From an uncultured Bacteroidales bacterium (GTDB lineage: Bacteria; Bacteroidota; Bacteroidia; Bacteroidales; Muribaculaceae), in contig CADBBK010000007.1 in assembly GCA_902792895.1 (NCBI GenBank), positions 1-64,000 of the forward strand: DNA of 64,000 bases, read 5' to 3'. Both the position numbers and the translations under genes were made by a program. This document shows positions 9,631 to 58,574 of the stretch, one piece after another; the stretch's first letter is position 1; every line of letters starts with the position of its first letter. The notes beneath the pieces were generated by a model. It saw only the letters and a program-made list of their open reading frames with translations. It did no database searches and was not told where the DNA came from.

Positions 9631-9676
9631 CCTAAAGCCTAAAACCTAAAGCCTAAAACCTAAAACCTAAAACCTA
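9631..9676. repeat. 7-nt TTAGG-type repeat tract, copy B
   Basis: About six units alternate CCTAAAG and CCTAAAA on the plus strand, so they read TTTTAGG/CTTTAGG on the minus strand, which is the direction of the flanking genes. Confidence 0.85.
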
Positions 9677-23008: not shown

Positions 23009-23046
23009 GGCTTTAGGTTTTAGGCTTTAGGTTTTAGGCTTTAGGA
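23009..23046. repeat. 7-nt TTAGG-type repeat tract, copy C
   Basis: Five units alternate GGCTTTA and GGTTTTA on the plus strand. They begin directly after the stop codon of the preceding gene and end 44 bp before the next start. Confidence 0.85.
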
Positions 23047-24627: not shown

Positions 24628-24680
24628 GCTTTTTAGGCGTTAGGTTTTAGGCGTTAGGTTTTAGGTTTTAGGTTTTAGGC
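24625..24680. repeat. 7-nt TTAGG-type repeat tract, copy D
   Basis: Seven or so units of GGCGTTA, GGTTTTA and GGCTTTT type on the plus strand, directly after the end of the preceding gene. This is the longest of the four tracts. Confidence 0.85.
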
Positions 24681-29152: not shown

Positions 29153-30553
29153 TCAGTTGGCAGCCATGAAGTCCTCCACATCCTTGGGATGGTAGGGGAT
29201 GCGCTTCTCGCCCAGGAAGCGGCAGCCATCGGCAGTGATGAGGATGTCGTCCTCGATGCGGATGCCACCAAAGTCCTTGTAGGTCTCCAGTTTGTCGAAG
29301 TTCAGGAACTCGGCGCAGTGTCCGCTGGCACGCCAGTCGTCGATGAGGGCGGGAATGAAGTAGATGCCCGGTTCGTCGGTCACGACGAAGCCCTCCTGCA
29401 GGCGGCGTCCCATACGCAGGCAGTTGGTGCCGAACTGCTCCAGGTTAGGCCTGGTTTCGTCATCAAAGCCCACATAGATCTGTCCCAATCCTTCCATATC
29501 ATGCACGTCCATACCCATCATGTGTCCCAGTCCGTGAGGCAGGAACATGGCGTGGGCACCAGCTGCAACAGCCTCGTCTACGTCGCCCTTCATCAGGCCG
29601 AGTTCCTTGAGGCGCTCGGTCATCAGGCGACAAACCGAGAAATGCACGTCCATATACTTCACACCGGGTTTGGAGATGTCCAGAGCGTGGTCGTGGCACT
29701 CCTCGACGATGCGGTAGATATCCAGTTGGCGCTGGTCATACTTGCCGGTCACGGGCATCGTGCGCGTGTTGTCGCTGCAGTAGAACTCCATCGTCTCGGC
29801 ACCGCAGTCACACAGGGCCAGTCGTCCAGCCTCCAACGGAGCCATCGACGGATTGCCGTGCATGATTTCGCCATGCTGCGAGAAGATAGTGGCAAAGCTC
29901 ACCTTGGCGCCATAGCTCTCGGCAATGCCGTCCACCTGGCCACCGATGTACTTCTCGGTGACGCCGGGCTTGATGAGGCGCATCGCTGTAGTGTGCATCA
30001 TGTAGCCCACCTCGGCAGCGCGTTCCAGTTCGACAATCTCCTCGGCCGTCTTCACCGCGCGCATGTTGATTACTGCCATGCGCAGGTCATGGGACACGGC
30101 CTCGGCCTGCTTGTCGGGGTGGATGCCCAGCAAGTCCATGATCTGGATCTTGGTGTCGTGGCGGTAGGGCGGCAGGAAATGGATGCGGCGGCCCTTGGCG
30201 CGCGCCTCGTCACAAATCACCTGCAGCTGCTTCATCGGCGCCGAATGGGCCACACCCACCTGGGCGGCCATGTCGGCCACGCTGTCCACCGAGCCATACC
30301 ACACGATATCCTCGATATCGATGTCGTCGCCAACGAGCGTTTCCACATCATTGTCGATGTCGATGACACCCACGAGCCCGTCGCGCTGCTGCCCGAAGTA
30401 GTAGAGGAACGACGAGTCCTGACGGAAGGGATAGTAAGCGTTGTTGGGATAGTTACAAGGCGACTCATTGTTGCCAAAAAGCAGAATCACGCCGTCGCCA
30501 ACGCGCTTTTTCAACTCGTTGCGGCGATTGATGTAGGTCTGTTTGCTAAACAT
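29153..30553 (-). CDS. Xaa-Pro aminopeptidase (M24B, PepP-like)
   Basis: This 466-residue enzyme removes the N-terminal residue from peptides with proline in position two. The N-terminal AMP_N domain (roughly 1-140) contains FLPPYRHD; the C-terminal pita-bread metallopeptidase domain has the expected ligands: Asp in CDCGAETMEFYCSDN, His in FLPHGLGHMMGMDVHD, Glu in DEPGIYF and Glu in GGIRIEDDI. Two manganese ions are likely. No signal peptide, so it is cytoplasmic. No clear TAnnTTTG promoter is seen upstream; it may be read from the panB direction or from a weaker promoter. Confidence 0.93.
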   Translation of the reverse strand: MFSKQTYINRRNELKKRVGDGVILLFGNNESPCNYPNNAYYPFRQDSSFLYYFGQQRDGLVGVIDIDNDVETLVGDDIDIEDIVWYGSVDSVADMAAQVGVAHSAPMKQLQVICDEARAKGRRIHFLPPYRHDTKIQIMDLLGIHPDKQAEAVSHDLRMAVINMRAVKTAEEIVELERAAEVGYMMHTTAMRLIKPGVTEKYIGGQVDGIAESYGAKVSFATIFSQHGEIMHGNPSMAPLEAGRLALCDCGAETMEFYCSDNTRTMPVTGKYDQRQLDIYRIVEECHDHALDISKPGVKYMDVHFSVCRLMTERLKELGLMKGDVDEAVAAGAHAMFLPHGLGHMMGMDVHDMEGLGQIYVGFDDETRPNLEQFGTNCLRMGRRLQEGFVVTDEPGIYFIPALIDDWRASGHCAEFLNFDKLETYKDFGGIRIEDDILITADGCRFLGEKRIPYHPKDVEDFMAAN

Positions 30554-30723
30554 AATGTCTTCTATCTATTTTATTGAATGGTTACTGTTTTATTCCTGAT
30601 TATCGGTAGTCTGAACTAATGCTAGTCTGACAAAATAAAACGCTGATGCTCAATTCATCGATTTGGCCTCAGATGGCTGACGCGCTGAGATATAGCGTAT
30701 AGTCTCATCGCACGCACGTTAAA

Positions 30724-31545
30724 CTAGTACTGTTCGTCGGCGTTGGGGAAATCACCGCTCTTGACATCGGTGATGTAGTTGCCCACGCTGTCGATGATCT
30801 GCTCACCCAGGTTGTTGTACACGCGCAGGAACTTGGGCTTGAACTCGCGGTTAAGCCCCAGCATGTCGTGCAGCACAAGCACCTGTCCGCTGCAGGCACC
30901 GCCACCGCCAATGCCGATGGTGGGCACGTTGATGGACTGTGTGACCTTGGCGGCCAGCGTGGCTGGAATCTTCTCCAGCACGATGCCAAAGCAGCCTATC
31001 TCGGCCAGCACCTTGGCATCGGCCAGCAGACGCGTGGCCTCGGCCTCGTCCTGGGCACGCGTGGAGTAGGTGCCGAACTTGTTGATGCTTTGCGGCGTAA
31101 GGCCCAGATGTCCCATCACAGGGATGCCGGCGCGCAGTATCATCTCAATGGCCGGGCGCATCTCGCGTCCGCCCTCCAGTTTCACACCATCGGCGCCGGT
31201 TTCCTGCATGATGCGCACGGCATTGCGCTGTGCCTCCATCGGGTCACCCTGATAGGTACCGAAAGGCATGTCCACGATGACCATGGCACGCTTGACGGCA
31301 CGCACCACCGTGCGGCCATACACGATCATGTCGTCGATGGTAATGGGGATGGTGGTGGCATTGCCCTGCATGACGTTGCTGGCACTGTCACCCACGAGGA
31401 TGATGTCGATGCCGGCCTGGTCCACAAGGGTGGCCATGGTGTAGTCATAGGCGGTTATCATCGCGATTTTTTCTCCCGCGAGGCGCATGTCGGCGATGCG
31501 CTTGGTTGTGACCTTGCGGGGGTCTGATACGGTATAGGTTGACAT
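30724..31545 (-). CDS. panB: 3-methyl-2-oxobutanoate hydroxymethyltransferase PanB
   Basis: This 273-residue protein transfers a hydroxymethyl group from 5,10-methylene-THF to 2-oxoisovalerate, the first step of pantothenate synthesis. Family motifs visible include KIAMITAYDYTMA (about residues 23-35), LVGDSASNVM with the metal-binding Asp, and GLTPQSIN. I start at 31545 (MSTYTVSD), because the promoter (31591-31621) lies inside the longer frame that begins at 31644. Confidence 0.95.
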   Translation of the reverse strand: MSTYTVSDPRKVTTKRIADMRLAGEKIAMITAYDYTMATLVDQAGIDIILVGDSASNVMQGNATTIPITIDDMIVYGRTVVRAVKRAMVIVDMPFGTYQGDPMEAQRNAVRIMQETGADGVKLEGGREMRPAIEMILRAGIPVMGHLGLTPQSINKFGTYSTRAQDEAEATRLLADAKVLAEIGCFGIVLEKIPATLAAKVTQSINVPTIGIGGGGACSGQVLVLHDMLGLNREFKPKFLRVYNNLGEQIIDSVGNYITDVKSGDFPNADEQY

Positions 31546-31590
31546 GATTTTTCTTATTTCAGTTTTTAATAATGAACATTCAAACGGTTG

Positions 31591-31621
31591 CAAATGTACT
31601 CGTTTGCAAGCAAAGGACAAA
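31591..31621 (-). promoter_or_regulatory. Promoter of panB
   Basis: TACATTTG at 31591-31598 and TTTG at 31618-31621 on the minus strand, 19 bp apart. This also decides the panB start at 31545. Confidence 0.7.
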
Positions 31622-31742
31622 ATTTTGCACTGCCATTCAACCAAAAAACGATGAAAACGCCCTAATATTAGGTGGCAATTGCTAATTTTTGATAATTTGG
31701 GCCACGATATAACATAAAAATCGAAAAACTGACATTATTCAT

Positions 31743-31773
31743 TTTGTCTTGTCGGTGATTTACATTAATTTTG
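31743..31773 (+). promoter_or_regulatory. Promoter of the Lys/Cys repeat protein gene
   Basis: TTTG (31743-31746) and TAATTTTG (31766-31773) are 19 bp apart. The leader to the ATG at 31828 is about 48 nt and A/T-rich. Confidence 0.75.
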
Positions 31774-31827
31774 GCCCCGCAAAATCAATTATCAATCTAT
31801 AAATAAAAAGTAAATAGTAAAATCATT

Positions 31828-32550
31828 ATGAAGAAATTCTTTTTGATGCTTGCCGTGGCTGCTATCGCCACCACTTCGATGGTTGCCCAGAACAACAACA
31901 ATGGCGCAATCGAAGAACCCGACCGCGTACAGATGAAGGCATTCTCCAAGAATCCCTCGGGTACCGATATCCCCACTGGATATGACAGCCCCCAGGTGGT
32001 GAACACTCCCAAGCACGAGTGCAAGGACCACAAGGACGGACAGCCCTGCACCAAGCCCGCCGACCAGCAGTGCCCCGACTGCAAGGCCAAGGCTGCTGCT
32101 GCCAAGCAGGAGTGCAAGAAGGCTGAGGGTCAGAAGTGCGACAAGGCCGCTGCCAACCACGAGTGCAAGAAGGGCGAGGCCCAGAAGTGCGACAAGGCTG
32201 CTGCCAACCATGAGTGCAAGAAGGGCGAAGCCCAGAAGTGCGACAAGGCTCCTGCAATGATGCTTAGCAAGAACGCCGAAGCCAAGAAGTGCGACAAGGC
32301 TGCCGACCAGCAGTGCAAGAAGGGTGAAGCCCACAAGTGCGACAAGGCTGCCGCCAACCACGAGTGCAAGAAGGGCGAAGGCCACAAGTGCGACAAGGCC
32401 GCCGCCAACCACGAGTGCAAGAAGGGCGAAGGCCAGAAGTGCGACAAGGCTGCCGCCAACCACGAGTGCAAGAAGGGCGAAGGTCAGAAGTGTGACAAGC
32501 CCGCCGACCAGCAGTGCCCCGACTGCAAGGAAAAGGCCAAAAAGAACTGA
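31828..32550 (+). CDS. Exported Lys/Cys-rich 17-residue-repeat protein
   Basis: This 240-residue protein has a signal peptide (residues 1-21, ending SMVAQ), then a linker of about 40 residues without Cys, then a Cys-rich part to the end. The Cys-rich part holds 21 cysteines. Its core is a tandem repeat of KCDKAAANHECKKGEGQ with alternating C-x8-C-x7-C spacing, in eight units at 32134-32550; unit 3 is degenerate and has lost one Cys. The segment KPADQQCPDCK occurs once before and once after the repeats. Lys is very frequent, so the protein is strongly basic. It has no lipobox and no type IX-like tail. No known family is recognised. Metal binding or a disulfide-linked structural role are possible but unproven. 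Confidence 0.85.
   Translation: MKKFFLMLAVAAIATTSMVAQNNNNGAIEEPDRVQMKAFSKNPSGTDIPTGYDSPQVVNTPKHECKDHKDGQPCTKPADQQCPDCKAKAAAAKQECKKAEGQKCDKAAANHECKKGEAQKCDKAAANHECKKGEAQKCDKAPAMMLSKNAEAKKCDKAADQQCKKGEAHKCDKAAANHECKKGEGHKCDKAAANHECKKGEGQKCDKAAANHECKKGEGQKCDKPADQQCPDCKEKAKKN
32134..32550 (+). repeat. 51-bp in-frame tandem repeats
   Basis: Units begin at 32134, 32185, 32236, 32287, 32335, 32386, 32437 and 32488. All are 51 bp except unit 4 (48 bp) and the longer last unit. Units 1, 2, 5, 6 and 7 are nearly identical in protein, with some silent changes, so recombination could change copy number. Confidence 0.9.
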
Positions 32551-32574
32551 TCTGACTGATTCAGACACTTGATT

Positions 32575-32629
32575 CCACGCGAAACCACTGAATGGCAACA
32601 CATCGGTGATTTAGCGTGGGATTTTTTTT
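32575..32629 (+). terminator. Terminator after the Lys/Cys repeat gene
   Basis: CCACGC (32575-32580) and GCGTGG (32614-32619) close a long stem with two internal mismatches; eight T residues follow at 32622-32629. Confidence 0.6.
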
Positions 32630-32657
32630 CAAATTTGCACTAATCCCCAACAAACCG

Positions 32658-34406
32658 ATGTCAACGGGAGGAAAACGAGTTCTCACAATAGTGTATTGCA
32701 TCATGGCGCTGTTGCCGCTGGCCGCTCAGGCCAAGGGCGATGCGGCGACGTGTCCCGTTGTGAAGATTGAGGCAGAACGGCTGGCCGACCTGAATATTCC
32801 CCGCGAGGGTACCTTGCTGTTGTGCCTGAACGGTGAGCCTACTGTCATAGGAAGCCATACCACCAACTTCGTACCCACGCCCACTATCGAGTATTTCAAG
32901 GACGGCAAGTGGCACGTGGTGCAAATGGCTTACGGCCATGACGACGGCTTTGCCGTGGAACTCTCAACGGGCCAGGTACTCATCGGCGGCGGTCATGAAC
33001 ACAATTTGGGCATCGGGCAGAGTTTCGAGGTGGAACTCTACGATCCACTGTCTCACACCTGCGAGGGGTTTGGCAGTCTCGACACCAAGCGGGCATTGGC
33101 ATCGGCCCTTGCGCTAGACGATGGTCGTGCCGTCATCGCCGGCAATTGGTATCACGAGGATGCCGTCGAGATGTATGACGGCAAGGGCGGTTTCGTTGGT
33201 GTGAAAGGCGTGAGTTGCGGACGGGCAACACCTTACATCCTGCGCACGGCCAAGGATGATGCCATCATCTTCACTCCAATTAATTCAAAGGGGCAATTCA
33301 CACCCCACCCGGTGATTGACCGCTTGCGTGGCGAGGCTTATAGTGAACCCTTACTCGAGGAGTGGGGACTGCCTGGTGGATATTATGCCAATAACTCGGC
33401 AAGTGCATTTATCGGTAATGAGTCCCAAGGCGATTATTCCTACTTGTTGATGGTCGAGAATGAGCAGGGACAAGCAGCGATTGCCCGTGTGACCAATGGG
33501 CAGTTCTCGCTGTTGCCCACCGATGTCCCTGTGCCGATGGCTTGCCAATGGGGCAAGATCTATTATGATGCGACCATTTATGCCGACCGTCGTGATCGGC
33601 GGGCATATTTATTGGGTTCTGACCCCGACAAGTACTGCCAATCTCCCAAACTCGATGCGGCGCGCGTCTATATCCTCACCATCGACTATGCCACGGTTCC
33701 TGCACGCTTGACACTAGGCTATACCGACGTGCTCAAGGACTTTGACGTCCGCTCCGCCCTCATGACCGCCGACGGCGACCTAATGATGGCGGGCGGAGTA
33801 CCGATGCAGAACAATTTCAAACCCTCGGGCGCCACCTGGCTGCTGCACGTCAGTGCGCGTGCCCAAGCAGCAGGCATGGGATTTCCCTGGTGGGGATGGG
33901 CGCTTATCGTCTTGGCCATCGCCGCATTGGCGGCTGGGCTGGTATGGCTGTTGCGCCACAGGAAAAGCACACCGGTTATTGAAACTGAAACTCCCTCCGA
34001 GGAGCCCTGCGAGAAAGTCCAGGAGGCTACAGTAGCGGGCACTGACGATACCGAACTCATGCAACGCATCTGTCAGGTGATGGAACAGCATCAACTCTTC
34101 ATGAATCCCAACCTGAAAATCACCGACCTTGCCACCACGCTGGGCACAAATCGTAGCGCGATCTCGGCCTGCATCAACTCGCAGCGCAACTGCTCGTTCC
34201 CGCAGTTCGTCAACACCTATCGCGTAGCCTACGCCCAGGAACTGCTGCGCAGTCAGCCCGATATTAAGATTGCCGAGGTATGTGTAAAATCGGGCTTTCC
34301 CAGCGAAGCCTCATTTTTCCGCATCTTCAAGGCCATCACCGGCACCACTCCCAGTGCCTGGAAAACCGCTAATCCGGCATCCAGCCACTTTTTCAAAAAA
34401 CCATAA
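32658..34406 (+). CDS. Membrane-bound one-component regulator: exported sensor, TM helix, AraC-type DNA-binding domain
   Basis: This 582-residue protein has a signal or anchor sequence (residues 5-25), a sensor region to about residue 400 with beta-propeller/kelch-like repeats (RALASALALDDGRAVIAGNW and VELSTGQVLIGGGHEH), one transmembrane helix (about 408-430), and a C-terminal AraC/XylS domain with two helix-turn-helix parts (about 465-575; LKITDLATTLGTNRSAIS and IKIAEVCVKSGFPSEASFF). It is built like the Bacteroidetes hybrid sensors, but without histidine kinase or receiver parts. It probably senses something outside the inner membrane and acts on nearby genes. I chose the ATG at 32658; the longer GTG start at 32616 lies in the upstream terminator and promoter-like region. 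Confidence 0.83.
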   Translation: MSTGGKRVLTIVYCIMALLPLAAQAKGDAATCPVVKIEAERLADLNIPREGTLLLCLNGEPTVIGSHTTNFVPTPTIEYFKDGKWHVVQMAYGHDDGFAVELSTGQVLIGGGHEHNLGIGQSFEVELYDPLSHTCEGFGSLDTKRALASALALDDGRAVIAGNWYHEDAVEMYDGKGGFVGVKGVSCGRATPYILRTAKDDAIIFTPINSKGQFTPHPVIDRLRGEAYSEPLLEEWGLPGGYYANNSASAFIGNESQGDYSYLLMVENEQGQAAIARVTNGQFSLLPTDVPVPMACQWGKIYYDATIYADRRDRRAYLLGSDPDKYCQSPKLDAARVYILTIDYATVPARLTLGYTDVLKDFDVRSALMTADGDLMMAGGVPMQNNFKPSGATWLLHVSARAQAAGMGFPWWGWALIVLAIAALAAGLVWLLRHRKSTPVIETETPSEEPCEKVQEATVAGTDDTELMQRICQVMEQHQLFMNPNLKITDLATTLGTNRSAISACINSQRNCSFPQFVNTYRVAYAQELLRSQPDIKIAEVCVKSGFPSEASFFRIFKAITGTTPSAWKTANPASSHFFKKP

Positions 34407-58398: not shown

Positions 58399-58472
58399 GC
58401 TTCTTTAGCTCAGTTGGTTAGAGCATCTGACTGTTAATCAGGGGGTCCTTGGTTCAAGTCCAAGAAGAAGCG
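58399..58472 (+). tRNA. tRNA-Asn (anticodon GTT), copy 1
   Basis: GCTTCTT pairs with AAGAAGC, the anticodon arm contains CTGTTAA with anticodon GTT, and the T-arm is CTTGG-TTCAAGT-CCAAG. The CCA end is not encoded. Confidence 0.97.
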
Positions 58473-58494
58473 CTTAACTTTCATAACAATGACT

Positions 58495-58568
58495 GCTTCT
58501 TTAGCTCAGTTGGTTAGAGCATCTGACTGTTAATCAGGGGGTCCTTGGTTCAAGTCCAAGAAGAAGCG
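58495..58568 (+). tRNA. tRNA-Asn (anticodon GTT), copy 2
   Basis: Identical over all 74 bases to the copy at 58399-58472, 22 bp downstream, and presumably in the same transcript. Confidence 0.97.
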
Positions 58569-58574
58569 CCCGAA

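Follow-up and report, generated by a model that had tools for sequence, protein, structure and literature searches.

Which function could be served by a protein in which a signal peptide is followed by an array of short units with cysteines at regular distances? The question is raised by one gene in the 64,000-nucleotide stretch of DNA analysed here (the window), whose product the original prediction had described as an exported repeat protein rich in Lys and Cys. Comparison of this array gene with its relatives leads us to consider it probable, on grounds of sequence and of predicted structure, that the product is an exported, metallothionein-like metal sponge or chelator.

The features of the gene and of its surroundings are collected in Table 1. 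The 21 cysteines counted in the original prediction, the degenerate third unit, the fourth unit of 16 residues and the PADQQCPDC motif at each end of the protein were all found again, the motif in the longer form KPADQQCPDC. The C-x8-C-x7 alternation is clear, though not strict as had been claimed, with exceptions among the successive Cys spacings (8,7,2,10,7,8,7,8,7,16,7,7,8,7,8,7,8,7,7,2). The second cap is made of the last unit plus PADQQCPDC, and TRF describes the array as a 51-bp repeat in 8.0 copies with 85% matches (score 535). Cysteine makes up 9.6% of the mature chain, in which CxxC occurs twice and 45 Lys are present with a net charge of +10; from position 63 to the end at 240 aromatic residues are absent, and the set V, I, L, F, W, Y and M is represented there by M, M and L alone. 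Cleavage of the signal peptide is predicted before Gln21, and A20 and Q21 are invariant in 28 aligned members of the family, as are the four Cys, the KPADQQ and the flanking K of the N-terminal cap. The protein is predicted to be exported through a Sec-type signal, which would bring it to the periplasm and give it a location in the envelope. When the N-terminal module of the window protein served as query, 11 of the 101 genus genomes gave a match at E<=0.1.

Table 1. The array gene, its parts and its flanking signals, with positions in the window
Feature	Position	Strand	Basis or remark
Remnant of type B promoter region	31639..31690	+	local alignment; common to most relatives
Bacteroidetes-type promoter (type A), TTTTG-19 nt-TAATTTTG	31742..31773	+	-7 box pattern
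Array gene ORF	31828-32550	+	240 aa, 21 Cys
Predicted Sec signal peptide, residues 1-20 (MKKFFLMLAVAAIATTSMVA/Q)	31828..31887	+	by eye
N-terminal module with EEPDRVQMKAFSKNPSGTDIPTGYD	31891..32013	+	missing in some relatives
N-terminal cap HECKDHKDGQPCTKPADQQCPDCK	32014..32085	+	28-member alignment, pN/pS
Cys/His array, 17-residue units KCDKAAANHECKKGE(G/A)(Q/H)	32107..32460	+	spacing, TRF, codon comparison
Degenerate unit KCDKAPAMMLSKNAEAK	32236..32286	+	unit comparison
C-terminal cap HECKKGEGQKCDKPADQQCPDCK	32461..32529	+	homologous to lipoprotein-family cap
Probable intrinsic terminator, hairpin then T8	32571..32630	+	fold statistics
AraC-type regulator gene	32655-34406	+	HTH_18, E 2.9e-15

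The statement that the protein belongs to no known family holds: searches of Pfam and NCBIfam at E<=1, and of PHROGs, were without a match, and the profile of its family matched no solved structure in the PDB. No match to a characterised family appeared, similar arrays being present behind an LTXXQ-type domain in two genomes, and no such family is named in the literature searched, as judged on titles and the openings of abstracts. The predicted exported family belongs to none of the described metallothionein families tested. Its defining set is a signal peptide, a Cys/His array and a KPADQQC-x2-CK cap, all present in the window protein, and the cap pattern occurs in 132 of 133 proteins (132 listed relatives and that of the window). 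A protein search gave at least 247 relatives at E<=1e-3 and a profile search 317, the best 120 being listed in each case; three source names among the matches listed read 'hypothetical protein', one of them belonging to a MAG of the Muribaculaceae. When genome contigs were scanned, relatives came up at 41 loci, whose titles comprise 23 RUG (which we take to mean rumen uncultured genome), 6 RGIG naming organs of roe deer, water buffalo or goat, 1 sheep, 10 SRR bins and 1 SIG149 (L048); a ruminant is named in 7 of the 41 titles, and the relatives come in part from ruminant guts.

Within the genus, 44 of 101 genomes match the family at E<=1e-3, including the non-canonical G156, G222, G227 and G235 and the fragment G230, as do 25 of the 48 of good quality; since the remaining 57 (23 among those of good quality) gave no match, the function is dispensable. 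The weak match in G156 was discarded as signal-peptide similarity in an unrelated frame, while G227 carries a divergent member ending HCDKCGTAEQQCGDCKDCKKN, on a contig other than that of its panB. In a family-level scan 40 of 397 genomes matched, three of them outside the genus and all three weakly (G342, G123, G160); in G099, also outside the genus, no array protein was seen (L005). Nothing pointed to a mobile origin: none of the 44 stretches of viral contigs that fitted a search pattern encodes a relative, and the one plasmid match (Paenibacillus, 26.5% identity, E 1e-8) was put down to low complexity.

On one side of the gene, panB lies upstream and divergent in all 38 loci tested, window included (L030, L046 and L047, at contig ends, and L048 were left out of the test). 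A PanB tree with 65 rows has a branch (support 84/96, recovered in 84% of bootstrap trees) that separates the 38 bearers from all other rows, so that bearers of the array gene are one PanB subclade by this sequence evidence. The comparison genomes had been chosen for panB, which 27 of 30 had, and at these 27 loci no family member was seen by eye in about 1.5 kb on the upstream side (at most 4 ORFs each). The PanB of the other bearers is 95-99% identical to that of the window, whereas for the array protein the best-matching segment shows 38-68% identity at 40 of the 41 loci (the other holds a 22-residue piece); the array gene therefore evolves fast.

On the other side, the gene that follows was tallied over 42 loci. 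It encodes an AraC-type protein at 13 of them, in one case as a piece of 91 aa, and a protein of 1300 aa at 20, with a short ORF intervening at three of these. A putative dus gene follows at one locus and other genes at three (L048 included), while five loci have no sequence there. The AraC-type regulator announced downstream of the window gene is indeed there, and has, by eye, an extracytoplasmic N-terminal part and a membrane span. The link between the two genes at which the original prediction hinted did not stand, the AraC-type gene being next in only 13 of 42 loci, as against 38 of 38 for panB where tested. A conserved pair or operon is out, also by virtue of the probable terminator between them. 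The fold of 32551-32640 has a z-score of -4.7, with none of 200 shuffles as stable, and although a simple consensus terminator scan did not report it, the transcript probably stops at this hairpin and its T8 tract, the array gene probably being transcribed alone. A search for RNA elements over window positions 30500-33000 returned one match, far under its gathering score.

Ahead of the gene, the promoter that had been predicted is present, called with what we take to be the Bacteroidetes consensus (-7 box TAnnTTTG). This box occurs in 37 of the 38 intergenic regions between panB and the array gene, L040 being without it. Eight regions, window included, are of type A, with TTTG 19 nt before the -7 box, and 29, by reading, are of type B, a long conserved block ending approximately in TTATTGCTAATTTTGGC (partial in L038). 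The remnant in the window aligns to the type B consensus with a score of 52 (maximum of 200 shuffles 35), and all eight type A regions do so with scores of 52-82 (maxima of 33-39 in 200 single-base shuffles); in the two alignments inspected, those of the window and L024, the type B-like stretch lies upstream of the type A promoter. Because type A regions retain this remnant, type A is probably a promoter added to a type B region. The idea that type B promoters define a regulon was not supported: a 25-nt pattern (<=3 mismatches) matched in 4 of 10 genomes, once each (G187, G180, G254, G277) and by coordinates always directly upstream of the array gene, the pattern being insensitive, as it missed the other six family-bearing genomes, that of the window among them.

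Elsewhere in the window, telomere-like heptamer arrays (TTTTAGG / TTTAGGC) stand at 9631-9672 (-), 23011-23045 (+) and 24659-24679 (+); all three lie clear of ORFs of at least 80 aa, and none was found in the 41 related loci or in 20 single-base shuffles. Two adjacent tRNA-Asn genes, 75 and 78 bases long, lie at 58399-58571 (+).

The original prediction had held the array to be kept regular, which is true of the unit sequence and fails for the unit number, since the latter varies greatly between alleles. Among the listed proteins, under near-identical N-terminal modules, the number of Cys spans 6-16 among the 17 proteins of one group, 10-21 among the 8 of a second and 13-23 among the 4 of a third, with a few members cut short and some of the variation possibly due to assembly collapse, as most come from metagenomes. 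By eye, P0049, P0043 and P0115 have nearly the same array behind different N-terminal modules, which suggests recombination between alleles.

Variation of this kind, together with the 57 genomes of the genus, out of 101, that gave no match, is what would be expected of a fast-evolving gene without selected function, whose repeats grow and shrink by slippage. However, the codons of the five full units of the window protein show 22 silent and 10 residue-changing differences over 10 pairs (pS 0.267, pN 0.024), and pN/pS of the cap is 0.15 over 33 of 39 loci, the other six falling outside the exact cap pattern used. Because of these values the + frame looks translated and under selection, and the promoter region is conserved as well; an absence of function is largely refuted by purifying selection and in our view scarcely credible. 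An antisense open frame of 269 aa, at 31792-32601 (-), spans the whole array gene; it is without support and has probably arisen from the repeat and from codon use.

If the frame is selected, its cysteines may serve either bonds or ligands, and their numbers and neighbours bear on the choice. For the disulfide ladder mentioned in the original prediction, a form can be drawn up in which Cys pair within or between chains into a tough mesh in the periplasm or at the surface, with the repeats as spacers. Exported Cys at regular spacing, fixed caps and a variable repeat number suit such an envelope polymer, and odd Cys numbers would permit inter-chain links. In fact, mature Cys numbers show no parity: 52 are even and 52 odd among the 104 of the 120 listed proteins that start with MK, and 43 even and 57 odd among 100 proteins with two caps, where 10 more without the searched signal end were left out.

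As for a thiol oxidase, no DsbB was found in 101 genomes of the genus, nor any VKOR above cut-off, with one weak VKOR match among the 101 and a sensitivity in Bacteroidales that is possibly low. A VKOR search of 60 genomes from the order produced one weak match, a 545-aa open frame that is presumably a VKOR fusion; this frame as query found nothing in the 101 genus genomes, in a search run without a positive control. At most, these results lean towards free thiols.

Another line of evidence is the placing of His. Among the 132 soluble members, His occupies position -2 of 672 of 2025 Cys, and 37% of Cys have some His within 3 residues (shuffled mean 23%, maximum 26%). The 133 proteins hold 243 caps, 145 of them distinct; with the reservation that the positions were picked after viewing the sequences, His at -2/-3 is found in none of 26 distinct caps with Cys at -1 and in 111 of 119 without it. 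At the 38 loci of the PanB tree, caps have His only in 25 cases, Cys only in 12, neither in one and both in none, so that 12 of 13 loci without the cap His carry the -1 Cys; the table leaves out the off-tree L030 (Cys only) and L046 (neither), and L008 and L027 fit by their second cap only. Pairs that swap one for the other number 11 over all branches of the tree and one on well-supported branches, and cannot be taken for many independent events. The exclusion looks like an exchange of ligands, and a His at -2 that is excluded by Cys at -1 is unexpected for disulfides. Thus, of what the original prediction had offered, metal binding gains from the His positions and the ladder loses support because of the missing parity, the failure to find a known oxidase in the genus and the fixed His positions, while none of the observations argues for cross-linking by lysines; we hold the disulfide-cross-linked polymer to be unlikely.

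AlphaFold gives the window protein a mean pLDDT of 53.8, with about 80 around the caps and about 34-57 in the array blocks, and shows in the array no four-helix bundle like that of Csp1, at low confidence. The first cap alone reaches a weak mean of 68.4, with a helix after CPDC, metals being outside the model. Many Cys in a predicted exported protein, in an array without a confident fold, could also act as a redox or electrophile buffer, that is, as exposed extracytoplasmic thiols sacrificed to oxygen, hypochlorous acid or polysulfide. Such a buffer leaves the His positions, the invariant PADQQCxxC cap and the exclusion between His and Cys unexplained, and appears to us distinctly improbable.

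The metal sponge, by contrast with such a buffer, accommodates the His positions, and further evidence comes from a second group of proteins. The locus L048 encodes a 91-aa protein with the lipobox FAACG, units HECTHNHEGEHKCDHNH and cap GEECDKPADQQCDKCK, downstream of what we assume to be electron-transfer flavoprotein genes. Of its 30 relatives found, 29 resemble one another, all of them with a lipobox and 27 with the cap pattern, and P0162 shares the signal region only; the NCBIfam PG1828 lipoprotein model covers the first 33 residues of the L048 protein, below cut-off (26.1 vs 50). With hhalign the lipoprotein cap aligns to that of the window family over 29 columns (98.4%, E 4.1e-15, both profiles being shallow), and we regard the two caps, on this alignment, as homologous. 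The lipoprotein units are His-x-Cys-x-His repeats with the cap behind them, and among 239 Cys, 141 have a His at -2 and 104 have one at +2, other positions being almost free of His. That 59.0% of the Cys have some His no more than 3 residues away is not beyond chance (mean of 200 shuffles 50.6%, maximum 59.4%), and it is only the -2/+2 register that is striking. After the lipid Cys, the number of Cys is even in 10 and odd in 19 of 29.

The composition of these lipoproteins bears on another explanation, which starts from the 45 Lys and the net charge of +10 of the mature window protein and sees in it a cationic surface or secreted polymer, binding mucin, LPS or DNA or serving as a source of antimicrobial peptides, with the Cys just holding it together. 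The related lipoproteins are lower in Lys (12.8% vs 21.2%) and higher in His (11.1% vs 4.3%) than the window family, with Cys kept at 9.6%, and no peptide-maturation enzyme was recognised among the few window neighbours tested; we find a Lys-based role highly improbable.

Arrays of His and Cys are also found in two genus genomes, G222 and G235, behind a signal peptide and an LTXXQ-type domain. Against the Pfam LTXXQ cut-off of 24.3 bits, P0164 of G222 scores 30.0, above, and P0163 of G235 15.9, below; the sole solved-structure match of the G235 protein at E<=1 is Spy (E 0.11). The matches outside the genus in G342 and G123 are LTXXQ-type proteins too (33.4 and 20.2 bits), and the low-complexity arrays on such proteins may be convergent with that of the window. 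In another genus, L100:528-1097 (-) encodes an LTXXQ-type protein, under the Pfam cut-off, whose N-terminal part holds the Cys-rich stretch CTNDCAKTEQCQKQKNCKKECKKDGDCKKQKDC and may have arisen in parallel. A wider proposal would join these forms into a superfamily of exported metallothioneins of gut Bacteroidales, built of one Cys/His unit in about 1-8 copies with PADQQCxxC caps, occurring as soluble proteins, lipoproteins or Spy/CpxP fusions, with repeat number tuning the extracytoplasmic metal capacity of a population; we see it as evenly balanced.

For the window protein itself, the preferred mechanism would run as follows. The Cys/His array between its two Cys/His caps would take up ions of soft or borderline metals, such as Zn or Cu, through thiolate and imidazole ligands, the thiols staying reduced in the periplasm of an anaerobe. 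The free chain would be disordered and fold around metal, the number of units would set the binding capacity, and the role would be metal buffering or detoxification at the envelope. Counted against it are the 9.6% Cys of the mature chain, the lack of CxC in all 132 relatives and the lack of a recognised metal gene alongside, among five neighbouring window ORFs compared with Pfam and among the locus neighbours; the Cys content and CxC of classical metallothioneins are unlike those of the window protein. Copper and zinc are fed as supplements, and bacterial metallothioneins are, to our knowledge, known chiefly from the cytoplasm. If the reading is true, an exported, repeat-tuned metallothionein bears on the handling of both metals by the ruminant-gut community and offers a simple model of repeat number setting binding capacity.

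Among known systems, the bacterial metallothioneins SmtA/BmtA and MymT resemble the window protein in part, being small and Cys-rich, with a binding part free of aromatics that is expected to fold on metal. They are not known to be exported, whereas the window protein has a predicted export signal, 9.6% Cys, no CxC, variable tandem units, two caps and no family match. A zinc finger within a metal cluster figures in the title of a reference given beside SmtA (PMC7558416). Csp1 is described as an exported metal-storage protein with many Cys per chain that carries a Tat signal and forms a rigid bundle of four helices (PMC7558416); the window protein, likewise rich in Cys and predicted to be exported, differs in its Sec-like signal (by eye), in an array without confident fold and in having no PDB profile match. 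The LTXXQ domain, which we take to be that of the Spy/CpxP/ZraP group, precedes the His/Cys arrays of the two genus genomes described above and is absent, as PF07813, from the window protein according to Pfam. In the sources consulted, ZraP is called a zinc-responsive periplasmic chaperone, and it is said to be disputed whether its regulator contributes directly to zinc resistance (PMC7657598, PMC13339815). Finally, the PADQQC-cap lipoproteins (P0133-P0161, L048) differ from the window family in their lipobox, His-rich units, single cap and other genomic place (one locus, L048), and share with it a homologous cap, a Cys array and predicted export.
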